Shown: piece after piece, positions 48,522 through 63,212 of the stretch
Position numbering within the stretch: position 1 is the stretch's first letter
How the letters are laid out: each line of letters starts with the position of its first letter
Origin: Acidobacteriota bacterium
Lineage (GTDB): Bacteria; Acidobacteriota; Terriglobia; Terriglobales; Acidobacteriaceae
Length of the DNA stretch: 64,000 bases
Direction: 5' to 3'
Assembly: GCA_013289795.1 (NCBI GenBank)
Contig: JABCZH010000007.1
Coordinates: forward strand, 124,001 to 188,000
Translations under genes and position numbers: made by a program
The notes under the pieces: model-generated
Told to the model about the DNA's origin: nothing
Database searches by the model: none
Seen by the model: the letters and a program-made list of their open reading frames with translations, nothing else

Positions 48522-49559
48522 GTGCACGGGGTGGCCGTGATTCGATTCCTTCGTCAATTTGCCCTACTTCTTGGCGTGGCATGGTTGCTTGTGCCTGTCG
48601 TGCTGGCCAGGTCGCACCGGCAACTGCAGATCTACTTCATCGATGTTGAAGGCGGACAGTCCACGCTGATCGTGACGTCCCAGAAGCAATCCTTACTCAT
48701 TGACGCCGGCTTTGCAGGCGAGCGTGACGCGGATCGGATTGTGCGGGCGGCCAAGGCCGCGGGCATCAAGCAGATCGACTACGTGCTCATCACCCACTAT
48801 TACGGAGACCACGTGGGTGGCGTGACGGATCTGTTGAAGAAAATCAAGGTCGGCACTTTCGTGGACCATGGTGAGAACCAGGAAGATTCCGACGCCACCA
48901 AGAAACACTATGCCAACTACGTGGCGGCGATCGCGCATTTTCCGCGCGTGGTCTTGAGGCCGAGCCAGGGAGTGCCACTGAAGGGCCTCACTCTGCAGGT
49001 GCTAGCCGCTGCGGGCGATCACATCACCGACCCTTTACCGGGTGCAGGGGAAGCCAACATCTACTGTGCATCGGAAAAGCAGCCTCCGGACGACACTAGT
49101 GAGAACTCCCGCTCGCTAGGGGTGCTCATCACTTACGGTCGGTTCCGGTTTCTGGATTTGGGCGATCTGACTGAGCAAAAAGCGCTGGAGTTGGTCTGTC
49201 CCAACAATTTGATCGGCAACGCCGATCTTTATCTGGCAACCCATCATGGAGGGTATCCCGACAATCCTCGGGCTCTGGTATGGGCGTTGCATCCGCGGGT
49301 GGTCGTGATCAATAACGGCCCACGCAAAGGAGGCAACCCACAGGCTTGGCAGATTATCCATGACTCGCCGGATCTCGAGGACGTGTGGCAACTGCACTAC
49401 GCCCTGGATTCCGACAAGCAGCACAATAGTGCGGAGGCTTTCATCGCCAATGTCGATGACAAATCAGACGGGCACTATGTCAAAGTAGAAGCCAGCTCCG
49501 ACGGGAGATTCAGGGTGACGAATTCACGAAATGGGATCGAGAGGAATTACGGAAAGTAA
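48522..49559 (+). CDS. Secreted MBL-fold metallohydrolase (ComEC-like)
   Basis: Starts with a signal segment (FLRQFALLLGVAWLLVPVVL), then an MBL fold: LQIYFIDVEGGQSTLIVTS, LLIDAGF, the metal motif THYYGDHVGG, and THHGGY with GNADLYLATHH further on. The usual HxHxDH motif is HYYGDH here: the second His is replaced by Tyr, although the other ligands are present, as seen in some ComEC-like relatives. The substrate is unknown. A GTG at 48522 or 48537 is possible. It ends 130 bases before the lipid gene cluster. Confidence 0.8.
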   Translation: MHGVAVIRFLRQFALLLGVAWLLVPVVLARSHRQLQIYFIDVEGGQSTLIVTSQKQSLLIDAGFAGERDADRIVRAAKAAGIKQIDYVLITHYYGDHVGGVTDLLKKIKVGTFVDHGENQEDSDATKKHYANYVAAIAHFPRVVLRPSQGVPLKGLTLQVLAAAGDHITDPLPGAGEANIYCASEKQPPDDTSENSRSLGVLITYGRFRFLDLGDLTEQKALELVCPNNLIGNADLYLATHHGGYPDNPRALVWALHPRVVVINNGPRKGGNPQAWQIIHDSPDLEDVWQLHYALDSDKQHNSAEAFIANVDDKSDGHYVKVEASSDGRFRVTNSRNGIERNYGK

Positions 49560-49689: not shown

Positions 49690-52086
49690 TTGTTGGCTCG
49701 AGAGTGGTACATCTCGGGAAGCAAAAAACCTTTGAAACCGTCTCTAGAAAATCCTGGCGGCCCCGGCCATGATGACCCCGTATATTGGCGGGTGGAGGGC
49801 AGTCTCCTCGAATTGACCACGGTCCGGTCAATTGCCTTCTTTACCTGGAATCTGCAAACCTTTACCGAACGCTGGACGCGCCGCGGCCTGGTTTTTCTGA
49901 TGGCTGTGTTGCGTCCTTTCCTGTATGCGCTGAACCGGGAATTTGCCACGCGCGTCGTGTACAGCGTGCTTCGGCGTGTCAGCCGCGACCGCCTTGATTT
50001 GCTGAGCGAAGAATACTTCCAATACAAGCTGAGACCTCAACTCAAGCCGGAGGGCGTGCGACAGCTTCAGGCGCTGATGAATTCGCGGCGGGACATCGTC
50101 CTGGTAAGCCAGGGGCTGGACCACATCATGCGCCCGCTGGCTCGGCATCTGGGCGTGCAGTGGATCGTTGCCAACCGCCTGGAGTTTCGCGACGGTATTG
50201 CCACCGGGAGGCTGCTTGACCCTGTGATTCGGCCACGCGGGGCTTTCGCCCGCATCACCGGAGCAGGCCCGGATGGGCAACGCAGCCCTGAACAGCTGAT
50301 TCGTGATCTTGACCTCGCCACGATTGAGGAGCTGCGCTCTGCCGTGGTTCCGTCCAGCCGCCAGGTGCCGATCCCGCAGCGACCCATCGTTCACTTTGAC
50401 GGTCCGCGACAAACCCGGCCTCTTTCCGTGCGCGCGGCGTTTGCCGGGAAGCACGTCATGCTGATTGGGGTGACGGGATTCATCGGCAAAGTTTGGTTGG
50501 TGAACACTTTGTTGGATTTGCCTGAGACCGGGCGCATTTATCTGCTGATCCGGCGCCAGAAGTCGAATCCAGCACAGCGCCGCTTCGAGAAGTTGATTGA
50601 GGACTCGCCTGTGTTCGATCCCTTGTGGGCGCGTCATGGCTCGGGGCTGTCACGTTTCCTCTCCGAACGTGTCGAAGTCGTGGAAGGCGATGTTTCCCAT
50701 CCCGGACTCGGACTTACTCCCGCGGCCGGCGAAATGTTGGGCAAGAATCTCGATTTGATTATCAACAGTTCGGGGCTGACCGATTTCAATCCCGATCTGC
50801 GGGATGCGCTGTTGACCAACGTCGATGCCGCCGTGAACGTGGTTGAGTTCGTGCGCCAGTCCGATCACGCGGGCTTATTGCATCTCTCTACCTGCTATGT
50901 CGCGGGACGGCAGGATGGGCGCGTCAGCGAGAGAATACGGCCGAACTACGTGCCCGCCGCTATCGCCGGCTACGACGCCGAACGCGAATGGCATGCCCTG
51001 CGCCAGTTGATCCAGGATACCGAACAGCGGGCGGAAGGCGGCGAAGTCACAGGAGAGCTCCGGCAGCAGGCGTTGCAGAAGGAACACGCCGCCAGAGACC
51101 TCCAGGGTGCGGCGCTCGAAAACCAGGTTCGTAAGAACCGGGTGCGCTGGCTCCGCAATCATCTGACTGAAGCTGGAACCAAGCGGGCGCTGGAGCTGGG
51201 CTGGCCCAATACTTACACTCTGACCAAGGGACTGGCGGAGTCGCTGCTGAACAAGTACGGAGCGGGCTTGCCGATTGCGATCGTTCGGCCCGCCATCGTC
51301 GAAACCTCGATTGAGAAGCCGTTCCGGGGATGGAATGAAGGCATCAACACTTCAGCTTCGCTTTCCTACCTGCTGGGTACGTATTTTCGCCAACTGCCGT
51401 CGAACGAGCGCAAGCGGCTGGATCTGATTCCGGTGGATTCGGTTTGCGCCGGGATGACCCTGATTGCAGCCGCGATCATGGAACGCCGCCACGACCCGGT
51501 TTATCAGCTCGCCGCTTCCGTCACCAATCCCTGCGATATGCGGCGGTCCATCGAACTCACCTCTCTGGCTCATCGCAAACATTACCGGGCGCAGGAAGGT
51601 CTGGAATACTGGCTGCGGCTGCGCTTTGACGCGATTCCCGTCTCGAAGGAGCGTTATCAGCGCATGTCGGCGCCTGCCCAGAAAGCGATCATTAAGTCCA
51701 TCCAGAGCATCATGTCGGCTTTCCCGCTGAAGAAGACCCCCTTGGCGCGCACCCAGCGCAATCTCGAGAAGGTCGAAAAACTGATTCAGCTGTTTGAACC
51801 GTTCATTCTGCTGAACGAGCATGACTTCGTGGCCGAGAACGTCGAGAAACTGGCGTACGCGCTGGTGCCCGAAGAGCAAGCCGATTTCGGCTACAACACT
51901 GCCGCCATCGACTGGTGGGAGTTCTGGATCAACATTCACGTCCCCGCGCTGCGCCGGTGGACTTATCCTCTGATTGAGGGGCGTCCGCTGGAAGCGAGAC
52001 CTGCGCGCGACTTCCACCTTGCCGAGGCGGAGAGCGACGTCACCGTAAAAACCGGCACGAACGGGGCAACGTGGCGATATTCCTGA
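49690..52086 (+). CDS. Degenerate HAD domain fused to a fatty acyl-CoA reductase
   Basis: Residues to about 250 resemble an HAD-IB (SerB-like) domain, but the nucleophile motif is [12 protein letters not shown] where DxDGT is expected, so phosphatase activity is unlikely. Residues from about 255 are an extended SDR reductase of the fatty acyl-CoA reductase type: [48 protein letters not shown] and the catalytic pair [14 protein letters not shown] (YxxxK). The C-terminal part is the Sterile-type helical domain. It would reduce acyl-CoA or acyl-ACP to aldehyde or alcohol with NADPH. The start is uncertain (TTG 49690). It overlaps the next gene by 16 bases. Confidence 0.85.
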
Positions 52087-53204
52087 CCGGCTCAACCGGC
52101 TACATCGGCGGCCATGTCGCTGCCAACTTGCTGGAACAACATGGCGCATCCGTGAATGTGCTGATTCGAGCGCGGGATGCGCATGAAGCCGAATTGCGGC
52201 TCTGGCAGGCCTTGCAGTTGCATCTCGACTTTCCCCGTTTCTATGAGCATCTGCAAACGCGGGTGCGGATCTTTCGCGGTGACCTGACCGGAGACCGTTT
52301 CGGCCTCAGCCGCGACGACTACGACCGGCTGATCCATACCAGCGATTCAGTGATCCACTGCGCCGCGTCGCTAAATCGCAAGTCGGAAAAGAGCTGCCTG
52401 AATGTGAATCTGCGCGGCACGTTGGAAGTGCTGCAACTCGCCATGCGAGTGCATCACTATCACGGCATGCGCCGCTTCAGCCATGTAAGCACGGTGGCCG
52501 TGGCAGGGAAGCGGCAGGACGAAGTCGTTACCGAAGACAAGTCGATTGATTGGGAACGCTCGGATTACGATCCCTACGCCCGCACCAAGAAATTTTGTGA
52601 GCACATGATTCGGCAGTTGCTTCCCGAAGTCCCGATTACGATTTTCCGGCCCAGCATCGTGCTCGGCGACAGCCGGCGCGCCGAAACCACGCAGTTCGAC
52701 ATGGTGAAGGCGTTTGTGTTTCTGGCGGGATTGCCCCTACTCCCCTTCCGTCCTAATGACAAGATCGACATCGTGAACGTCGATTTCGTAGCCGATGCGA
52801 TTGCCACGCTGCATCAAAAGGCGCAGGCGCAATACGACGTTTATCATCTTTCTTCCGGCAAAGACTCTCAGACCTTTCGCGAATTGACCAACGCCCTGGC
52901 TGCCGCCCGGCAAAAGCGCGGGCCGATATTTCTGCCGGCGCTGGAGCGGCCGTTTTCCGCTGTTATCAATACTCTGTCGAACTTCCGCGGCCCCATCTCA
53001 CATGGGGCCTCACTGATGAAGGTGTTCATGCCGTATCTGTTGTGGAACACTGTGTTCGACAACACTCGCGTGACGACTGAACTCGGACGCATGCCGGTGC
53101 CTTTTTCGCAATACAGTTTCCCGCTGCTCAAGTTCAGCCGCGAGGGCAAGTTCACTTACCGTTATCAGGATTGGCCCACGCGAGCCGGAGGTACAGCAGC
53201 ATGA
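52071..53204 (+). CDS. SDR-family reductase (thioester reductase / male sterility-like)
   Basis: A 377-residue NAD(P)-binding protein: [20 protein letters not shown], then [31 protein letters not shown], and a [11 protein letters not shown] YxxxK pair, then [13 protein letters not shown]. It belongs to the extended SDR group used by thioester reductases and long-chain acyl reductases. The GTG start lies inside the last 16 bases of the preceding reductase gene, and the stop overlaps the next start. Two reductases in sequence suggests reduction of an acyl intermediate in two steps or of two substrates. Confidence 0.87.
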
Positions 53205-54610
53205 TGGACTTCATCCTTGAAGCCTGGGTGAGCGCCTCTATTGAAAAGTCGAAGGCTGCGTGGATGCTGGGTAAGGGTAAGCCATGGCAACCGGGGGAAA
53301 AGCTCAAGCTGCTGTTCGCTGGATACAATGGCACCCGCAACATGGGTTCCGACGCGCGTGTGGAAGAAATGTTGCGGCAGATTCGCCACATCCTCGGGGC
53401 ACAGAACGTCGACTTCAGCGCGATGACCTTTAACTTCGAGCGCTCGCGCGGCTATTTTGAAGGAACTACCCAGGTGCGCTTGCCGGATATCTTTCCACCC
53501 TTCCTGGCCCGTGAAGTTCCCAAACACCACGGCGTCGTCGCCTGCGAAGGCTCGATGTTCAAGAGCAAGTTCGCCAACGCGCTGACTACGATGATGATTG
53601 GATCGTTGGGAATTGCGGCGGCCGAGAATAAACTCTCAGTCGGCTACGGAGCCGAGGCCGGCCAGATGGACCCGCTGGTCCGCAAGATGTGCTGCCGCTT
53701 CTGCAAGAATTCGCTGATCATCACGCGCAATGAGGAATCGCGAACCATCCTGCGCGAACTGGGTGTGCCCACGGAGTTGGGGACGGACACCGCCTGGACC
53801 TTCGAGCCGCATCCCGCCGAGTACGGACAGAAAACTCTGCGCAACGTGGGATGGGACGGCAAAACACCGGTATTGGCAGTGTGTCCCATCAATCCTTTCG
53901 AGTGGCCGGTGAAAGCATCGGTTGCCAAACTGGCCATCCACAGCTTGACCGGAGCTTATAAAGGAGAGCATTATCGCGGGCCGTATTTCCATAATTCGGG
54001 ACCGGATGCCACGCGCGCCTACCAGCAATACCTCACCGCCATCGCAAGAGCCGTCGATGCATTTTGCAAGCAGCGCAAGGTTTTTGTGGTCATGGTGGCA
54101 ACCGAGCGCCTCGACGCCCGTCCCGCGAACCGCATCTCCGAGCAACTCGGCGGCGTCCCGGTACTGACGTCCGAGGAGTACAACATCTACGAACTGGTGA
54201 GTGTGTTGCGCGCGTGTCACATGATGGCGTCTTCGCGTTATCACGGAATCGTGACCTCCATGCCGGGTTTAGTTCCGTCGGCGGGGATTACCATGGACGA
54301 GCGCATTCGTAACCTGATGCACGAGCGCGGCCACGCGGACCTCCTGATGAACGTTGACGACGCCGACCTTGAGCCGAAGCTGCTGGCGGCACTCGAGAAG
54401 CTAGCCACGGACGGGGAGCGCATCGCCGAAGCGATTGGGCGCACCGTGGTGCGTAATCTGAAAGTGATGGCGCGGATGGGTGTGTACTTCGAGGAAGAAG
54501 TTCAGCGGCGCTACCCGGAGTTTCCCACCCGCAGGGGCGAATGGAGTTGGGAAGATTACCTGCCCCCCCTGAGCACGGGCCTGAAGAGTTTGGTCGAGGC
54601 CTATAGTTGA
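53201..54610 (+). CDS. Polysaccharide pyruvyl transferase-like protein
   Basis: A 469-residue protein of the pyruvyl transferase fold (PF04230-like): [20 protein letters not shown] near residue 45, then [33 protein letters not shown], and [20 protein letters not shown], which matches the C-terminal signature. Members add pyruvate ketals to sugars or act on related glycan acceptors. The ATG at 53201 overlaps the previous stop (ATGA) and follows GGAG; the frame could start earlier at 53171. Its place between acyl reductases and acyl ligases is unusual and argues for a glycan- or lipid-linked target. Confidence 0.82.
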
Positions 54611-54635
54611 CGGAGCTCCACAGGAACCTTCACAC

Positions 54636-56282
54636 GTGAGCTTTCTGGATAATATTTTCGCGCGGCTGGCGGCCTCACCCGATGCCGTCTTCCTGCGCGA
54701 ATTACGAGATAGCCAACCCCCCGCCGCCGCCGGGCGCGAATTGCTCGAAAGAATCGCGAAGGCCCGAAGTTTCCTTGTCAGCCAGAGCATGAAGAAGGGC
54801 GATCGGGTCGCGCTCCTCGGTCACAACAGCATCGACTGGGTGGCTATCGACTTGGCCATTATGGCGGAGGGATTGATCGTCGTCCCGCTCTACGCGAGAC
54901 AATCTCCTGCGGAACTTGTCGCCATGATGAAGGACTGCGGGCCCACACTGATCTGCTGCGGAGATGCCGCCCTGCGAGATGGCATCCTGCGGGAATGGCC
55001 CAATGCGCCCTCACTGCATTTGTTCGATGACATGCTGACCGTGAAGCCCGGTGATAACGCGCTTCCGCGCGTTGAGGAGTCCCATCCCGTCACCATCATT
55101 TACACTTCCGGCACATCGGGCGAAGCTAAGGGAGTGGTGCTTACCGCGGGAAACATCGGCCACATGTTGGGCTGTACATCGGAGCGACTCGACACGCTGA
55201 TGGAGAAACGCTCCAGCCAGGACCGCGTATTCCACTATCTGCCGTTGTGCTTTGCCGGTTCGTGGATCATGCTTCTGACCTGCCTTTTTCGCGGCAGCCA
55301 GTTGACGCTTAATACCGACTTGACCAAACTTGCCAAGGACGTCCGAGTCGCTGCTCCCGACTATTTCCTGAATGTCCCCCAACTGCTCGAACGCATGCGC
55401 AAAGCCGTTGACGAACAACTGTGGAAGACCGGGGGCGTGGTGCAAACCGTTTACGGCAAAGCCAAAGCCGCATGGATGCGTAGGCAGGAGCGCAACTCGA
55501 GCTTCGCGGATTCAATGTGGCTGGCCTGCGCGAAATCCGTCGTGTTCCCCACTATCCGCAAGAAGATGATCGGATCGAATCTGAAAGCGTTGATCTGCGG
55601 GTCGGCGCCACTCAGCGTCGAGACGCAGCAGTACTTCATGATGCTGGGAATCCCGGTGCTTCAGGTGTATGGGCTGACCGAGACAACGGCGATCTGCACT
55701 ATGGACGACCCGCGTCGCGTCGAACCCGGGCGTGTAGGGCCGGCCATTCGCGGGATCGAAATGAAGCTGGGCGAAGATGGCGAGATCATCGTGCGTGGCC
55801 CCAACATTTTCCCCGAATATTGGAACCGTCGACAGGAGACCGCCATGGCGTTGCGCGATGGCTGGTTTCACACCGGCGATCAGGGCGAAGCGGACGCCAC
55901 GGGGAACTGGAAACTTGTTGGTCGCATCAAGAACTTGATTATTCTCGGCTCCGGCCACAACATTTCCCCCGAGCCGATCGAAGACGAGCTGCTCCTAAAT
56001 CTGCCAGGCGCCCAGCAGGCCCTGGTGGTAGGCAATGGGCGTGGCTATCTCTCGGCGATTCTTACCGGCCCGGTAACGCCTCAGCAGGCGCAGGCCGCGG
56101 TGGACGCGGTGAATCTTGCCATGCCACACTACAAACAGATTCGAGCGTTTCATGTTCACGCCGAACCCTTTTCCATAGACAATGGCTTGCTTACGGCGAA
56201 TGGAAAATTGAAGCGTGACCTTATCGCCGCCCAATTGAGGAGCGAGATCGAAAAGATGTATGCGGTGAAGCAGGCGGTATAG
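54636..56282 (+). CDS. Acyl-AMP-forming ligase (fatty acyl-CoA synthetase-like)
   Basis: A 548-residue ANL-superfamily enzyme: P-loop YTSGTSGEAKGVVLT, VYGLTETTAICTMDD, the Asp of HTGDQGEADATG, the hinge region GRIKNLIILGSGHNISPE, and the catalytic Lys near the end in LTANGKLKRD. It activates a carboxylic acid with ATP as acyl-AMP and transfers it to CoA or to a carrier protein. The N-terminus fits long-chain acyl ligases. The start is GTG 54636, 25 bases after the previous gene. A separate acyl carrier protein is encoded two genes on, so transfer to that carrier is plausible. Confidence 0.92.
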   Translation: MSFLDNIFARLAASPDAVFLRELRDSQPPAAAGRELLERIAKARSFLVSQSMKKGDRVALLGHNSIDWVAIDLAIMAEGLIVVPLYARQSPAELVAMMKDCGPTLICCGDAALRDGILREWPNAPSLHLFDDMLTVKPGDNALPRVEESHPVTIIYTSGTSGEAKGVVLTAGNIGHMLGCTSERLDTLMEKRSSQDRVFHYLPLCFAGSWIMLLTCLFRGSQLTLNTDLTKLAKDVRVAAPDYFLNVPQLLERMRKAVDEQLWKTGGVVQTVYGKAKAAWMRRQERNSSFADSMWLACAKSVVFPTIRKKMIGSNLKALICGSAPLSVETQQYFMMLGIPVLQVYGLTETTAICTMDDPRRVEPGRVGPAIRGIEMKLGEDGEIIVRGPNIFPEYWNRRQETAMALRDGWFHTGDQGEADATGNWKLVGRIKNLIILGSGHNISPEPIEDELLLNLPGAQQALVVGNGRGYLSAILTGPVTPQQAQAAVDAVNLAMPHYKQIRAFHVHAEPFSIDNGLLTANGKLKRDLIAAQLRSEIEKMYAVKQAV

Positions 56283-56303
56283 CTGCATTGTAGATTCGAA
56301 TCC

Positions 56304-57107
56304 ATGAATCACTTTAAGGGTGACACACTCTCGTGGCAGGTGACGGATGGCGTCGTCGAACTGGCGCTGCACCGCACGCCTTGCAATGAGATCGGCTCCG
56401 CCACGATTGTCGAGCTTGAAAAGTTTGTCGCAGCGCTGGGAGCCATGGAAGCGGAAGCTCATGCGCTCATTATCTACAGTGAACTCAAGCCTGGGTTCTG
56501 CGCCGGAGCTGACCTACGGGAGTTGTATCGCCGTTCCAAGGAGATGGCGCAAGCCGATGCCCTAAAAGGAGTGCGTCATCACGTGGAACGCATTCACGCG
56601 GTAATGAATGCGATTGATGCCTCACCCCTGATGACCATTGCAGCGGTGCATGGCGTCACGTTTGGCGGAGGGTTCGAACTGGCGTTGACCTGCGACCTGA
56701 TCATCGCCGACAAGATGGCGCGCTTCTGTTTTCCGGAGTTGCGCCTGGGGCTGATTCCCAGCTTTGGCGGCATCCCGCGGCTAAAGCGAGATCTAGGAAA
56801 CGCAGTAGTCCGCGACCTTCTTTTAACAGGCCGCAGTTTTAACGCCACCAAAGCGCAGCAGATCGGCCTGGTAAGCCAGGTGGTGGGCGAGGATGAGGCT
56901 CTAAGAGCAGCACGTGCGACCGCCGCCCAACTAAGGAAATTCGACCGCACGACAGCCGCGGCCGCAAAGAAATTCATCAAACCGATTCCCTACGAAGAAC
57001 TGAATCGAGAGATCGATCTCTTTTGCGAGCTCTTTACGCACCCGGCGGTGGAAGCCGGTCTGCGGAAGTTCGTGGAAAGTACCGACGCGCTGCCGTACTT
57101 GCCGTGA
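56304..57107 (+). CDS. Enoyl-CoA hydratase/isomerase family protein
   Basis: A 267-residue crotonase-fold protein: GFCAGADLRELYRRS (oxyanion-hole region), TIAAVHGVTFGGGFELALTC, FPELRLGLIPSFGGI and a C-terminal helix region. Of the two usual acidic residues for hydration, Glu in the LGLIPxxGG-like stretch is not evident (PELRLGL has Glu-Leu earlier), so hydratase chemistry is not proven; isomerase, thioesterase-like or other crotonase reactions remain possible. Located 21 bases after the acyl ligase and 22 before the carrier protein, in the middle of the lipid operon. Confidence 0.87.
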   Translation: MNHFKGDTLSWQVTDGVVELALHRTPCNEIGSATIVELEKFVAALGAMEAEAHALIIYSELKPGFCAGADLRELYRRSKEMAQADALKGVRHHVERIHAVMNAIDASPLMTIAAVHGVTFGGGFELALTCDLIIADKMARFCFPELRLGLIPSFGGIPRLKRDLGNAVVRDLLLTGRSFNATKAQQIGLVSQVVGEDEALRAARATAAQLRKFDRTTAAAAKKFIKPIPYEELNREIDLFCELFTHPAVEAGLRKFVESTDALPYLP

Positions 57108-57129
57108 AAGGCCTTCTTGAGGACATGCA

Positions 57130-57378
57130 ATGCAGATGACAACAACCGACAAAACCCTGGACGAAATCCTCACTCTCGCCGCGACCCACTTCAAAGTGCC
57201 CCGGCAGAGGCTCACTCCCGACGATGACTTTTTCAAGACCCTCGGAATCGACAGCCTGCAAGCCCTCGACCTGCTGACCAAGCTGGAGAACCATTTCCGC
57301 ATCGAGCTGCCGGACTACGAGTTGCAGGGTGTCTCGGATTTCCGCACCCTGGCGAGCCGTATTCAGGCCAGGCTGTGA
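57130..57378 (+). CDS. Acyl carrier protein
   Basis: An 82-residue carrier: helix 1 DEILTLAATHFKV, then the phosphopantetheine site LGIDSLQALDLLTKL with the attachment Ser in DSL, and helix 3/4 with LPDYELQGVSDFRTLA. It is shorter and more basic in part than fatty-acid-synthase AcpP and is flanked by AMP ligases, which is the pattern for a dedicated carrier of a secondary lipid or polyketide-like pathway. AGGA lies 7 bases before ATG 57130. An ATG at 57136 is possible. Confidence 0.93.
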   Translation: MQMTTTDKTLDEILTLAATHFKVPRQRLTPDDDFFKTLGIDSLQALDLLTKLENHFRIELPDYELQGVSDFRTLASRIQARL

Positions 57379-57448
57379 GCGGAGAGTGGTGAATTGATAA
57401 CTAGCTCAATTCTGTACCTCCCCGTCTCTGTGGTGAAATAGATCTTTC

Positions 57449-59161
57449 ATGCTCAATCTTGACCAGTACAGTTGTCTGGGCGCTGCCTTGCGCGATGCGC
57501 TCGACCGCTGGCCCAACGAAGTGTGCCTGATTGAGTCCGACCGCAACCGGGAGAAGATACGGCTCACCTATTCGGACTTCAAGGAAACCGCCAAGCCGCT
57601 GTCGCGCGCGCTGCAGGATGCAGACCTCAAAGCCGGAGACCGCGCCGCCATCATTATGACCAATCAGTCCAAGTGGCTGATCTCCGCATACTCCATTTTT
57701 CATATTGGTGGCGTCGTGGTCCCGATCGATTACAAGCTCACGGCAACAGAACAGCTGCAACTGCTGGCGCACTCTCATGCGAAGTTCCTGGTGGTCGAGT
57801 ACCACCTCTGGCGGGCCATCACCCGTGCTCCGGAGTTCTCAAGCCACCAACTCAAGACCGTTCTAGTGACGGAAGCGCCTCTGGGCGCCGAGCTTGCCGG
57901 GGCGTTCCGCTGGGAAGAGTTCCGCCGCAAGGGCGAACCCGAATTCATACCCCGCAGGCGCGACGACATCGCTTGCATTGTCTATTCCTCGGGTACTGGC
58001 GGCCGACCCAAAGGATGCGTTCTTACCCACGAAAATTATCTCGAACAATGCAAGTCGTTGACCGCGTGGTATCCCTTCCAGCCGGGCGTGCGTTATCTGA
58101 GCATCCTCCCCACCAATCATGCTATCGATTTCATGGTTGGCTTTATTGGACCGCTCGTGTGCGGAGCGTGTGTGGTCCACCTGCGCACATTGCGGCCGGA
58201 ATTCGTTCGCGATGCCTTTGTGCGGTACAAGATCACTTATGTCAGCCTGGTTCCCATGGTGTTAAAGAACCTGGAGCGCGGCCTGAAGGCCAAGTTTCAG
58301 GAACTGTCGCCGGTAAAACGCTTCTTCCTGGACCGCATGATCGCGCTGAATCGCGTGCTGGTGCGCAGGCGGCCGAACCTCCAGCGCAGCCGCAAGTTGC
58401 TGCGGCAGGTGCATGAGGGATTTGGCGGGGAACTGCTGGCCATGTTCACCGGTGGCGCATTCATGGAGCCATCGACTCTGCAATTCTTCTACGATCTCGG
58501 CATCCCGGTGGCCAATGGATACGGCCTAACCGAGGCCGGCACCTCGCTCACGCTCAATGACTTCAGGCCTTTTCGTGCGGACACTGTAGGTAGGCCACTG
58601 CCGGGGGTCGAATTGCGCATTCTGAGTCCCGATGCCGAGGGCATCGGAGAGGTCTCCGCGCACAGCAAAACAATAATGGCCTACTACCTCGACGACCCCG
58701 AGCTCACGGCGGAAACCATAGTCGATGGATGGCTCTTGACCGGTGACCTGGGCCGCTTCGATACCGCTGGCCACCTGCAACTATTCGGTCGCAAGAAGAA
58801 CATGATCGTCACCGAAGGCGGCAAGAATATTTACCCCGAGGACATTGAGACTGTCTTTGATGGTCTCGCCGTCAAGGAATACTGCGTCTTTGCCGCCAAC
58901 TACATCTGGCCGGACAAGCAACTGGGCCACGAAACTCTGGTTTTGGTCTTGCGTATGGATCAGAATCAGGAATTCAACGAGCCCTTGAAAAACGAGATTG
59001 TTTTCCGTAACCGAAAGCTCCCCGATTTCAAGCGTGTAGGCGGATATGTGATCTGGGGCGAGGACTTTCCCCGCACTGCTTCCATGAAGATCAAGCGGGT
59101 ACTGCTAGCTGAGGAAATTGGCAAACATCTTGAGCGTGCCACCGCGGTGGTGGACTTGTGA
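57449..59161 (+). CDS. AMP-dependent acyl ligase, second
   Basis: A 570-residue ANL enzyme: [20 protein letters not shown] (adenylate loop), [52 protein letters not shown], and the C-terminal Lys region [15 protein letters not shown]. The loop between the N- and C-terminal parts is long. It differs strongly from the first ligase and could use another acid or act as an acyl-ACP ligase for the nearby carrier protein. The stop of this gene overlaps the lipid kinase start by 4 bases. ATG start; ribosome binding site weak. Confidence 0.9.
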
Positions 59162-60063
59162 GTGAGACGTTTCTGGCAGTAGTGAATCCTGCCGCCGGCG
59201 GCGGGCGCTGCCGCAAGCTAGTGGGACCCGCACTTGATCGCTTGCGAGCCGGCGGCGTTTCGGTGGAAGTCATCGAAACAGCGGGGCCGGGTCACGCTAC
59301 CCATATCGCCCACGATGCCTACGCCCAGGGCCGCACTCATTTCATCGCCGTTGGCGGCGACGGTACCTCCTACGAAATCGTCAACGGACTCTTTCCGCAA
59401 GCGGCCCCGTCGGGCCCGCGCCCCACGCTGGCTTTTCTTCCCCTCGGGACCGGCAATTCATTCCTGCGGGAATTCACCGATCGCGGAGTGGAGCACGCAA
59501 TCGAAGCCTTGCTGGCCCGGCGTTCCCAGCCCTGCGATGTTCTGCGCATGCGGCACGCGGGCGGAACCCTCCATTACATCAATCTTCTGAGCGTGGGTTT
59601 TGCCGCCGATGTTGCCACACTCCGCGCACGCCGCTTCCGCGCCTGGGGCGAACTTGGCTACCAAGCATCCATTTTCATTTCATTGACCCGCATGCGGCGC
59701 CGGCCCTTTCCCCTACGCATTGAAGAACAGGGAGAACTCGACCGCCGGCCGTGCCTCTTCTTGACTTTCAACAACAGCAAGTTTACCGGCGGGACCATGA
59801 TGATCGCGCCCAAAGCGGAAGTGAACGACGGGTTGATCGAATATGTGCGCTGGGGGCCAATCGGCAGAATTGAACTTGTCCGCAAACTGCCGACACTATA
59901 TGACGGTACTCACATCAACCATCCGCTGGCAGAGCGCTGTGCCGTCAAGCGCATAGATTTTGAACTCGACGCGCCGGTGGATGTCATGGTGGACGGGGAA
60001 GTGATGAGCATCCAGTGTCAGACGCTGGATGTTCTGCCCTCCGTCCTCAACGTCGTGGTATAA
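59158..60063 (+). CDS. Diacylglycerol/lipid kinase (YegS/DagK family)
   Basis: A 301-residue lipid kinase: nucleotide loop [35 protein letters not shown] (GGDGT), LPLGTGNSF, and a C-terminal domain with [15 protein letters not shown] and [20 protein letters not shown]. It phosphorylates a hydroxyl of diacylglycerol, alkylglycerol or another lipid. The GTG start overlaps the preceding ligase stop, so the two are translationally coupled and probably act on the same product. It ends the core of the lipid cluster; a thioredoxin-like gene follows 11 bases later. Confidence 0.92.
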
Positions 60064-60074
60064 AAATTATTGCC

Positions 60075-60500
60075 ATGTCGGACACCCGAAAGAAGCGCCA
60101 GCAGGATCGGAGTGCGAACGCTCAGCCCCACCCGCTGGCGCTCAAGATCGTCATTGTTGTTGGAATCGTCGCCGTGTGCGCCGGCCTCTATTTTCTCCTG
60201 CGGCATAAACATGACAGCCGTATGGATGCTTTTGCCCAGTGCCTCGGTTCCAAGGGTGCCAAGATGTACGGCGCCTATTGGTGTCCGCACTGCGCCGACC
60301 AGAAAGAGCTGTTCGGTTCCTCTTTTCAGTATGCCCCCTACGTGGAATGCGGAATCAAGGGTTCGCGCAACCAGGCGCAGGTCTGTACTGACGCGGGCGT
60401 CAAGCGCTTTCCCACCTGGACTTTTGCCGACGGGGCTAAGGTCGAAGGCGAGCACTCGCTCGAGTTTCTCGGCGAGGCAACCGGATGCCCTCTGCCATGA
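60075..60500 (+). CDS. Membrane-anchored thioredoxin-like protein
   Basis: A 141-residue protein: basic N-terminus, one membrane helix (IVIVVGIVAVCAGLYFLL), then a thioredoxin fold with MYGAYWCPHCADQKELFG (redox pair CPHC) and FPTWTFADGAKVEGEHS. It is typical of the small thioredoxin domain that accompanies VKOR. The ATG at 60075 is used; a frame from 60015 is longer but overlaps the lipid kinase. Its stop overlaps the start of the VKOR gene in an ATGA arrangement, so the two are made together and likely form a disulfide-forming pair on the outer face of the membrane. Confidence 0.9.
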   Translation: MSDTRKKRQQDRSANAQPHPLALKIVIVVGIVAVCAGLYFLLRHKHDSRMDAFAQCLGSKGAKMYGAYWCPHCADQKELFGSSFQYAPYVECGIKGSRNQAQVCTDAGVKRFPTWTFADGAKVEGEHSLEFLGEATGCPLP

Positions 60501-60964
60501 GTAACGTGGCGACGACCGATGCTGTGATGAGCCATGCCGTTCGGCGAGTCTTCTTAACTGTGGCGGTCTTAGCTTTGGCCGGAATCGTGGTGTCTTCCGT
60601 TTCGCTCTACCACCATTACGGGACCTCGCAGACCAACTATTGTGATTTCGGCGCGAACTTCAACTGCGATATCGTGAACCGCAGCGTCTATTCGACTATT
60701 CTTGGCGTACCCGATGCTCTGATCGGCATTTTGGGATACGCTGGGCTGCTCGCCCTGGCGACCACGTATCGCGCGAAGGCCGAAGCCCCCGCGATGCTGC
60801 TGATCGGTTCAGTGGCGGGCCTGAGCTTCGCACTTTACCTCACCTACGTCGAAGCCTTCGTGCTGGCCACGTGGTGTGTATTGTGCCTCTCATCGCTTAC
60901 TTTGATTGTTCTGATCACCGGGCTTTCATCATTTCTGGTTGCAAGCGCAATGCGGCGTTCCTGA
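60497..60964 (+). CDS. Vitamin K epoxide reductase (VKOR) family protein
   Basis: A four-helix membrane protein with the VKOR loop: NYCDFGANFNCDIVNRSVYS (loop Cys pair) and the active-site WCVLCLSS (CxxC) in the last helix. Bacterial VKOR oxidises a thioredoxin-like partner with quinone as acceptor, replacing DsbB. The partner is encoded just upstream. Start ATG 60497 is coupled to the previous stop; a start at 60485 is also possible. The pair provides periplasmic disulfide formation and may serve secreted or membrane enzymes of this operon, but this is inference. Confidence 0.9.
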   Translation: MSNVATTDAVMSHAVRRVFLTVAVLALAGIVVSSVSLYHHYGTSQTNYCDFGANFNCDIVNRSVYSTILGVPDALIGILGYAGLLALATTYRAKAEAPAMLLIGSVAGLSFALYLTYVEAFVLATWCVLCLSSLTLIVLITGLSSFLVASAMRRS

Positions 60965-60970
60965 TCTCTC

Positions 60971-61831
60971 ATGTCCTCAGACCGGCTCATAGAAAAGGCT
61001 GACCACTCGAAGATGGAACGGCCAGTGGTTGTTCGGGGTCCATCGGTCGTGGGCGACTTTCGCCTGCATGAATTCTCCAGCCGCATCTACCGTAACACCC
61101 GCATGCTGCGCGTCTGGCTGCCGCCCGACTACGAAGCCCCGGAGAATGCGGCGCGTCACTATCCGGTCTTTTATCTCAACGACGGACAAAACTTGTTCGA
61201 CCCTGCAACTGCATTCGCAGGGGTCGAGTGGCGAGTGGATGAAACCGCCGACCGATTGATTCGGGAGGGGAAGATTTCGCCGCTCATCATCGTTGGGATC
61301 GACAATACCGGGGCGGAGCGGATCAAAGAATTTCTTCCCTATCGGTCGTTCAGTCCGCCGGTCCTGCGTCCACAGGGCAAACGTTATCCAGATTTCCTGA
61401 TGAGCGAGGTCATGCCGTTCGTCTATGAGCGCTACCGCATCGCGCGTGGGCCGGAAAACACCGCCTTGGGAGGCTCGTCTTTGGGCGCGCTGATTTCGTT
61501 GTACACCGTGATGGATCGCCCCGGTACATTCAGTCGCCTGCTGTTGGAGAGTCCATCGTTGTTCGTTTCCAACCGGCGAATATTGAAGTACAGCCGCTAC
61601 TTCCGGCAGTGGCCGGAGAAAATCTTCGTCGCCATTGGATCCCGTGAAGCCGGGCGGGAAGACAAAGACCGCCAGGTGGTCGAGGACGTCCGCGAACTGC
61701 AGCGCATCATGCATCACGCGGGCCTGGGAGACGATCAGCTCAGAGTGCGTATCGATATAGGGGCCGGTCACAACGAAGCGGAGTGGGGCAAACGATTCCC
61801 CGAGGCTGTGAGCTTCTTGTTTGGAAAGTAG
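60971..61831 (+). CDS. Alpha/beta-fold esterase (Fes/EstD-like)
   Basis: A 286-residue esterase: MLRVWLPPDYEAPENAARHY, FYLNDGQNLFDP, nucleophile Ser in LGGSSLGALISLY, and the His of GAGHNEAEW near the C-terminus. The Asp/Glu of the triad is not pinned. The family includes enterochelin esterases and related carboxylesterases; the substrate is unknown. It has no signal peptide, starts 6 bases after the VKOR stop and is the last gene of the plus-strand run. It converges with a GT87-like gene. Confidence 0.87.
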   Translation: MSSDRLIEKADHSKMERPVVVRGPSVVGDFRLHEFSSRIYRNTRMLRVWLPPDYEAPENAARHYPVFYLNDGQNLFDPATAFAGVEWRVDETADRLIREGKISPLIIVGIDNTGAERIKEFLPYRSFSPPVLRPQGKRYPDFLMSEVMPFVYERYRIARGPENTALGGSSLGALISLYTVMDRPGTFSRLLLESPSLFVSNRRILKYSRYFRQWPEKIFVAIGSREAGREDKDRQVVEDVRELQRIMHHAGLGDDQLRVRIDIGAGHNEAEWGKRFPEAVSFLFGK

Positions 61832-61898: not shown

Positions 61899-63212
61899 TC
61901 ATCCTCCATTCGAAACAGCCGCGCCGGTGGGGCGAGCGTCGAAGAGCCGTTGGCCGGCAAGGAGAAAATACAAGAGCAGCATCGCCAGGGGAATAAATAA
62001 AACGGTACCCACTGGGACAATCCAGAACTTTCGAAGCACGTTTGAAGAAACGACCGTTGCTGCAGCCATGAAAATGAGAGAACCTACCCATTGCCAGCCA
62101 ATCAGAGCCCAAACCCCGACATAAATCAGTCGTGAGTAGCGTCCGCCGGCCCACACCCTTTTGAACTCCTTCACTAGGACAAAGATTGCGGGGAGGAGCA
62201 TAACTTGTCCCGTGGTATAGGGTATGGGGGTCACAACCACGGTTACGACTAAGGCGAAGGACAACCCAAAGTTAAATGCAGCTGAACCAGCGGGTTCGCG
62301 TGGGATACGCCAAATCATACGCGCGAAGAGAATCAGTATTGCAACGCATACCACTAGGGCGCCAGGTTGTGTCACTAAGTTGCCAAGCATCCAGGAACCG
62401 CGAGTATACCGGCTGTAGGCCGCCAAGCCGGAGACAAACTCGGGAATCCATCCTGGCAGAAGGTGTTCCGAAGCTCCGACGAGCAAAGCCATGGCGAGGA
62501 CGAATCCCCACACCAGGTTCTTCCTAGAACCCCAATCCCAGAGTGCCCACACTAGCAACCAGACAACCGCCAGCCAACTTACAGGAGGCTTGATAGTTGC
62601 CAACGCCAGCAGCACGCCGGCGAGAGGTAGAAGTCCCTTGCTAAGAGCAGCGCAAGATGCAGCCAGGAATAGCGCAGCCAATAGGACGGGCTGTTGGAGG
62701 TAAACGTCCTGCAACGTCGTGAAGCTCCCGAAACTCAACAGCGTCAGTAACCCTACTGTTAGCCTGTCGCATCGCCACCGAAGCGCAGAAAGCCACAATG
62801 GAACGGTCACCAGCACGGTGATCGGCAGAATCCATCGGAAAAGAGCCTCGACTGCCGGGAAGGAGTAGCGAACGGTGGGGGTCAGCAGAAACACTATGTA
62901 CAACGGATATGCAAATCTGGGCTCGTCGTGTAGCTCTGCTTCGCTGATCACATGAGCACGCCCCCAGGATTGTATTTCACGCGTCACCTCCGGACCATAT
63001 GGATCTCGGCCACGGAGCAGCAGTTCGCGCGCACCGTACCACCGGGGGAACAGATCGGAATAGTACAGATAGACTGGAGGCGCCCAGACGCGATCTACGT
63101 AGAACCACATGCTGAAGCAAAGCAAAGCCGCCATCAGCAAAAGGGTTTGGCGCCTTTCTCCGGCCACCTCGACGATCGAAAACCCTTGGGCTGCCCTGTC
63201 GTGTCTGTCCAC
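61899..63212 (-). CDS. Polyprenyl-phosphate-dependent glycosyltransferase, GT87-like
   Basis: A 437-residue protein with about ten membrane helices (for example LLLMAALLCFSMWFYVDRVW, ALFRWILPITVLVTVPLWL, VLLAALFLAASCAAL, LVCVAILILFARMIW). The first loop after helix 1 contains SDLFPRWYGARELLLRGRDP, with the acidic residue typical of GT-C enzymes, and a YGPEV motif as in the GT87 (DUF2029) mannosyl/hexosyltransferases. Such enzymes transfer sugars from polyprenyl phosphates outside the membrane. The first codon is GTG at 63212. Substrate unknown. Confidence 0.82.
   Translation of the reverse strand: MDRHDRAAQGFSIVEVAGERRQTLLLMAALLCFSMWFYVDRVWAPPVYLYYSDLFPRWYGARELLLRGRDPYGPEVTREIQSWGRAHVISEAELHDEPRFAYPLYIVFLLTPTVRYSFPAVEALFRWILPITVLVTVPLWLSALRWRCDRLTVGLLTLLSFGSFTTLQDVYLQQPVLLAALFLAASCAALSKGLLPLAGVLLALATIKPPVSWLAVVWLLVWALWDWGSRKNLVWGFVLAMALLVGASEHLLPGWIPEFVSGLAAYSRYTRGSWMLGNLVTQPGALVVCVAILILFARMIWRIPREPAGSAAFNFGLSFALVVTVVVTPIPYTTGQVMLLPAIFVLVKEFKRVWAGGRYSRLIYVGVWALIGWQWVGSLIFMAAATVVSSNVLRKFWIVPVGTVLFIPLAMLLLYFLLAGQRLFDARPTGAAVSNGG

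Follow-up and report, generated by a model that had tools for sequence, protein, structure and literature searches.

In a 64,000-nucleotide stretch of an Acidobacteriota genome (GenBank assembly GCA_013289795.1, contig JABCZH010000007.1, positions 124,001 to 188,000; hereafter the window), we recognize an operon (positions 49690–61831, genes g1–g11; Table 1) that we read, with a probability of roughly 0.55, as descended from the elb ether-lipid cluster, with its parts dispersed, and as making an alkyl, probably ether, glycerolipid. The sequences show its gene content, conserved order and domain homologies, the loss of a catalytic nucleophile from a HAD domain and the kinship of one reductase with ElbD; the individual reaction steps, the substrate and the ether product are inferred. 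The parts shared with elb suggest that an acyl group is activated, loaded onto a carrier and reduced as a thioester, and that a lipid is phosphorylated. An earlier guess of an ether-type lipid, made from the DNA sequence alone (the original prediction), fits the grouping of the g1 reductase with ElbD and of its HAD domain with ElbB.

The interval is filled by 11 co-directional plus-strand open reading frames (ORFs), not the twelve of the original prediction, which correctly described gaps of up to about 70 bases: the junctions range from −34 to +70 bases, with several start/stop overlaps. The domains named there (two NAD_binding_4 reductases, a PS_pyruv_trans protein, two AMP-binding ligases, an ECH protein, a PP-binding carrier and a DAGK_cat kinase) were borne out by Pfam, which adds a VKOR protein and an esterase; the first gene is indeed a reductase, but its fusion to a degenerate N-terminal HAD domain had been overlooked. 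Active-site motifs are found in the reductase part of g1, in g2, in g4–g8 and in the CxxC proteins. The gene block has a GC content of 0.585 versus 0.576 for the window, and a promoter and terminator scan gave a signal no higher than in shuffled sequences. We treat g1–g8 as the core and g9, g10 and g11 as accessory.

When named genomes were scanned with an alignment of g3, 294 relatives came up, the best 80 of which supplied the loci compared here; all 80 come from metagenome-assembled genomes titled as Acidobacteriota groups (Terriglobia, Candidatus Sulfotelmatobacter, Acidobacteriaceae, etc.). Gene content was counted in the 38 well-flanked loci with ~10 kb on both sides, the other 42 being cut by contig ends. 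Every one of the 38 has all eight core genes, which rules out a chance gathering of lipid genes, and 37 are collinear, the exception (L116) having its g5–g8 block inverted in place; the conserved order in Acidobacteria by which the original prediction proposed to check the operon is thereby found. Accessory genes recur less strictly (g9 and g10 in 37/38 each, g11 in 30/38), and the absence of g9 and g10 from L034 and L036–L039 makes them look like later additions. Among 297 genomes sampled across Acidobacteriota, g1 has matches at E≤1e-20 in 45, approximately full-length in nine, the window's genome included, and strong g3 matches (at least 674 bits) occur in exactly these nine; beyond these, g3 matches at E≤1e-20 are limited to G062, one of the nine, which has a second copy at 38% identity, and to G131, at 28%. 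Family f70 has g1 in 10 of its 11 genomes, in some as fragments. The separation of the genes in relatives, which the original prediction had named as a counterargument, is seen in G132 and G062, members of other families in which the g6–g7–g8 block lies on a different contig from g1–g4; in the well-flanked loci the genes stay together. The core is thus old and made of two blocks.

The kinship with elb is carried by g1. Sequence comparison reveals homology between its N-terminal part and the HAD phosphatase ElbB, the former having lost the catalytic aspartate. A hidden Markov model (HMM) of ElbB scores 69.7–93.0 bits on this domain in the 12 g1 rows tested out of 71, versus at most 44.0 on four other HAD-family proteins encoded in the same genome; reciprocally, an HMM of the g1 domain scores 38.5–90.6 bits on 16 ElbB proteins and at most 18.4 on four other same-genome HAD-family proteins. 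The motif survey used 71 of 89 possible g1 sequences (>700 aa and >700 bits; cut, broken and lower-scoring ones were dropped), and in all 71 motif I reads W-R-x-E-G-S, the nucleophilic aspartate being replaced by arginine, with no motif IV visible in the alignment of the HAD part. ElbB, in contrast, keeps D-x-D/E-G-T in 16 of 16 sequences, with the strict motif IV pattern in nine. Across 70 relatives the HAD part is 57–80% identical to the window's copy, suggestive of a pseudo-phosphatase under selection, and a dead yet conserved domain of this kind raises the question of what a phosphatase without its nucleophile does in a fatty acyl reductase (FAR).

The reductase half of g1 has an NAD_binding_4 domain with GxxGxxG and YxxxK, scores 32.7 bits against the Sterile domain (PF03015), just below the cut-off of 35.4, and in a predicted model finds its best PDB fold match in DPW, a fatty acyl reductase from rice (7eoz; Foldseek E 3.3e-30). 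It is one of only two strong NAD_binding_4 proteins in the window's genome (4.67 Mb in 33 contigs), the other being g2. All 15 g1 rows fall into a single clade of the FAR tree (support 100/100), which joins 11 acidobacterial ElbD rows and three solo FARs of elb clusters at 99/98, with the remaining ten ElbD rows outside (nine in one clade at 97/99, plus L170). As g1 nests with some ElbD rows, the ElbD FAR domains do not form one group without g1, provided that the tree is rooted on its outgroups; these are few and long-branched, the plasmid-derived one comprising one long match (Streptomyces) and one short one. With the root to that extent unsure, the sequences place the g1 reductase in the ElbD lineage. 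The likeness to DPW would also suit a cluster whose product, either a free fatty alcohol or a wax ester, is stored or coats the cell surface; we regard this as improbable, since the lipid kinase and the dedicated carrier suit membrane lipid synthesis better, and the genome yields no match to the WS/DGAT family, although control genomes gave none either, so that absence is not shown.

In Myxococcus xanthus, ElbB and ElbD are parts of an ether-lipid operon, and disruption of ElbD strongly lowers ether lipids (PMC9131029). The present cluster shares with elbA–elbE the FAR lineage (via acidobacterial ElbD), an ElbB-like HAD, a ligase, a carrier, an SDR and, in three related families and not in the window, an acyltransferase. 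It differs in that the functions of ElbD, a FAR-ACS-ACP-AT protein, are split onto separate ORFs with no AT match in the window, in that the HAD domain is fused to the FAR and lacks its nucleophile, in the absence of ElbC, and in four fixed extras: the GT-B-like pyruvyl-transferase-family protein, the enoyl hydratase, a second ligase and the lipid kinase. The ligase and carrier domains of ElbD are active in vitro, whereas fatty alcohols from its reductase were not detected (PMC9131029), so that even the parent elb pathway is unsolved; ElbD-like homologs in some other phyla almost all lack the FAR1 domain (PMC9131029).

Acidobacteria also possess elb-type clusters, sampled here as 24 stretches (L040–L045, L153–L170). 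The one tested by Pfam, L040, has the ElbD architecture (NAD_binding_4, Sterile, AMP-binding, PP-binding, Acyltransferase), with an ElbB-like HAD and ElbC nearby. Matches to ElbB occur in 16 of the 24 stretches, to ElbC in 16 and to the acyltransferase part of ElbD in 20. ElbC, to which the Myxococcus review (PMC9131029) assigns no known function, is a Lar_N (lactate racemase N-domain) family protein in all four acidobacterial copies inspected (L040:9456-11054, L041:5505-7100, L044:8893-10644, L045:1223-3106). A YegS-like kinase is present in half of the stretches (L041, L043, L044, L045, L154, L161–L164, L166, L168, L169), in ten of them on the FAR strand. These clusters thus share with the operon the phylum, FAR and HAD homology and, in part, the kinase, but have an intact HAD motif I in all 16 ElbB and, in most stretches, an acyltransferase part and ElbC, and none of the 24 stretches has a g3 match. 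No genome among the 45 that match g1 shows both cluster types, at most three candidates being scored per genome; in the 36 of these beyond the nine above, the open frame containing the best match measures 1,442–1,809 aa in 32, the exceptions being 508, 581, 654 and 1,174 aa. In sponge-symbiont Acidobacteriota and in Poribacteria, elbD-like clusters (PMC9426513) have an elbD homolog flanked by hydrolases/dehydratases and oxidoreductases, with a single NRPS-like multidomain core gene in place of the separate proteins found here.

The acyltransferase part of ElbD has a counterpart in some relatives. The PF01553 protein that is missing from clusters of the window's type (ACYLTRANSFERASE) lies directly after g8 in G235 (L038), G132 (L207) and G062 (L208), the latter two copies being 63–70% identical to that of L038, and the order carrier-ligase-kinase-acyltransferase thus recurs in three families (the L207 and L208 kinase and carrier genes being detected by tblastn). 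Each of the four domain types of ElbD is thus present as a separate protein in these families. The view past g8 is limited in L036, L037 and L038, whose stretches end at most 2 kb past, or before, its end, the post-g8 region of L036 and L037 being outside view. Elsewhere in the window's genome are two FAR-less ElbD-like proteins (ACS-ACP-AT; L134 on G000:C8 and L138 on G000:C5, open frames of 912 and 850 aa), either of which could supply the acyltransferase step. Between the two ligases, the ElbD ligase region of L040–L043 scores higher by tblastn with g7 than with g4 in all four cases, and in the tree g4 falls together with a single other ligase from the window's genome (L131). The kinase g8 scores 117.4 against TIGR00147, just below the cut-off of 118.65.

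On these parts we propose the following scheme. The ligase g7 (and/or g4) would activate a long-chain, probably iso-branched, acid and load it onto the carrier g6; the thioester would then be converted to an aldehyde or alcohol by g1, through its reductase half, and/or by g2, with the pseudo-HAD part of g1 serving perhaps in substrate binding or as a scaffold; an acyltransferase, of the kind found beside the kinase in three other families and not at the window's cluster, would join a chain to the glycerol backbone; and g8 would phosphorylate the resulting alkyl(acyl)glycerol for phospholipid synthesis. The enoyl hydratase g5 may work on an enoyl or hydroxyacyl intermediate, and g3 may decorate the head group or replace ElbC.

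The sequence of g3 is constrained (mean column identity 72% in 38 sequences), and R356 and H358, which we take to be the phosphoenolpyruvate (PEP) motif of pyruvyl transferases, are invariant in all 38. Its score against the CsaB model TIGR03609 is 59.2 bits, far below the equivalog cut-off of 213.1. The predicted model (pLDDT 86) matches UDP-GlcNAc 2-epimerases and glycosyltransferases, e.g., 7vz6_C (Z 22.0, root-mean-square deviation 4.0, 328 aligned residues), folds that are presumably GT-B; the 50 fold matches listed are by title mostly UDP-sugar 2-epimerases and glycosyltransferases, none being named a pyruvyl transferase, which excludes nothing, and the sequence itself found no solved structure at E≤1. 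Its translation likely starts at the ATG at 53201 or 53204. The g3 paralogues were of no help as a guide to function, the 38% copy of G062 adjoining a sensor kinase and a patatin and the weak G131 one lying near glutamine synthetase genes. The operon might instead make a specialized glycolipid or capped lipid, in which the reductases produce a long-chain alcohol or diol, g3 adds a pyruvyl group or sugar and the lipid is phosphorylated, the elb kinship then reflecting ancestry rather than function. The tight linkage of g3 to g1 and its constraint, the presence of the lipid glycosyltransferases PimA and MGD1 among its many fold matches, and the departure from elb seen in the dead HAD and missing ElbC would all fit such a product; nevertheless, we think it rather unlikely, as none of the eleven genes is a polysaccharide gene, the CsaB score is low and the donor could be either PEP or a nucleotide sugar.

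Another possible product is a polyketide-like or elongated fatty acid, extended or modified before reduction by a ketoacyl synthase III (KAS III), g2 and the hydratase g5, whose GGGFELA and PELRLG motifs we assume to bear the two catalytic glutamates. In its favor are a KAS III gene between g5 and g6 in two relatives (L036:14717-15718, L037:5640-6629) and the resemblance of g2 to the terminal reductase domains of nonribosomal peptide and polyketide synthases (its score against TIGR01746 is 137.8 bits, below the cut-off of 213.35). However, KAS III has no match in the 80 loci or in the stretches of the six remaining close relatives, of which those of L035 and L039 do not span the g5–g6 junction, and neither a ketoreductase nor an enoyl reductase was recognized in the core, making this alternative highly improbable.

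Several observations weigh against descent from elb and an ether glycerolipid product. The ElbB nucleophile is lost, and ElbC has no match at E≤1e-10 in the window's own genome or in any of the five genomes of families f1 and f60, the four of f70 and f37 giving partial matches of 27–31%. No clear descent from elb counterparts emerges for g7, whose long branch in the tree lies close both to ElbD ligases and to other ligases of the genome, for g8 with respect to the kinases neighboring elb, or for g2, the candidate ElbE-type SDR, which matches the stand-alone SDRs of elb loci L041, L044 and L045 weakly (44–53 bits). The L038-type acyltransferase finds no match in the window or in the 80 loci, 57 of which extend at least 2 kb beyond g8. 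Twenty same-family genomes on the list gave no g1 match at E≤1e-20, and we found no lipid data for organisms carrying the cluster. Finally, the glycerol ester reductase Ger/PlsAR offers an alternative bacterial route to ether bonds, with domains that we take to differ from those of this cluster; the window's genome encodes elsewhere (L176/L191, G000:C17) a large protein with two BcrAD_BadFG domains and a DUF2229, presumably the Ger/PlsA-type architecture, which by domain content is a candidate glycerol-ester-reductase-like protein. The operon hence need not be the only ether route in this organism. Solibacter usitatus makes iso-C15 mono- and diethers without ElbD, with PlsAR proposed as responsible (PMC10087280), and ether and ester iso-diabolic lipids are reviewed for subdivisions 1, 3, 4 and 6 (PMC13274423).

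Table 1. Genes of the operon, with positions in the window, predicted products and supporting matches.
Gene	Position	Strand	Assignment	Basis
g1	49690..52086	+	degenerate ElbB-like HAD (~residues 30-225) fused to ElbD-lineage fatty acyl reductase (~residues 250-775)	PF07993 171.5 bits; PF12710 47.4 bits; HAD motif I; FAR tree; PDB fold match
g2	52071..53204	+	stand-alone thioester-reductase-like SDR	PF07993 158.8 bits; motifs GSTGYIG and YARTK
g3	53171..54610	+	PS_pyruv_trans-family protein, GT-B-like predicted fold	PF04230 36.2 bits (cut-off 25.3)
g4	54636..56282	+	acyl-activating enzyme (ANL ligase) 1	PF00501 197.5 bits; motifs
g5	56304..57107	+	crotonase-fold enoyl hydratase	PF00378 146.7 bits; GGGFELA and PELRLG motifs
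g6	57130..57378	+	dedicated acyl carrier protein	PF00550 48.8 bits; DSL at residue 41
g7	57449..59161	+	acyl-activating enzyme (ANL ligase) 2	PF00501 219.7 bits
g8	59158..60063	+	YegS/DagK-type lipid kinase	PF00781 88.5 bits (over cut-off); PF19279 90.4 bits; GGDGT
g9	60075..60500	+	CPHC protein, accessory	CPHC motif; ATG at 60075; no significant Pfam match
g10	60485..60964	+	VKOR-family membrane protein (disulfide formation), accessory	PF07884 85.7 bits
g11	60971..61831	+	esterase, accessory	PF00756 82.5 bits

Among the accessory genes, g9 might, at a guess from its CPHC motif, encode a thioredoxin-like partner of the VKOR protein g10. Upstream, a metallo-beta-lactamase-fold gene (48522–49559, same strand) has a match in 11 of the 80 loci; downstream, a convergent 437-aa ORF without a Pfam match (61899–63212) has a relative in six of the 80. 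One relative encodes a 555-aa protein without a Pfam match between g1 and g2 (L038:7994-9661). Elsewhere in the window's genome, four adenylation-domain matches within ~21 kb (G000:C18; L127, L130, L133, L135) possibly mark a nonribosomal peptide or similar cluster.

In the literature searched, mostly outside subscription journals, we found no description of this gene combination and no paper on ether-lipid genes in Terriglobia; the papers on elb or Acidobacteria, in the portions consulted, concern intact elb, Ger or lipids. The original prediction's statement that no described pathway has exactly this set holds to that extent, but the set appears by its sequences to be a rearranged relative of the described elb system, the split architecture and the added parts being its new element. 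A Black Sea study calls the pathway unclear, since the elb cluster or agps homologs are found in only some subdivision 4 genomes (PMC11868695). The operon bears on the genetic basis of ether-bond formation in Acidobacteria and on the identity of the soil bacteria behind the branched tetraethers from which past climate is reconstructed. More speculatively, it might represent a third type of bacterial alkyl-lipid operon besides ElbD and Ger/PlsAR, in which a pseudo-phosphatase-reductase fusion and an obligate step by a GT-B-like, pyruvyl-transferase-family protein would give soil and peat Acidobacteria an ether glycerolipid of new chemistry, perhaps pyruvylated, which might contribute to the branched ether lipids that serve as climate proxies. 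Searching for whole ElbD could overlook or misname such a dispersed operon; conserved in Terriglobia and relatives, and apparently elb-derived, it offers a defined gene set to test.

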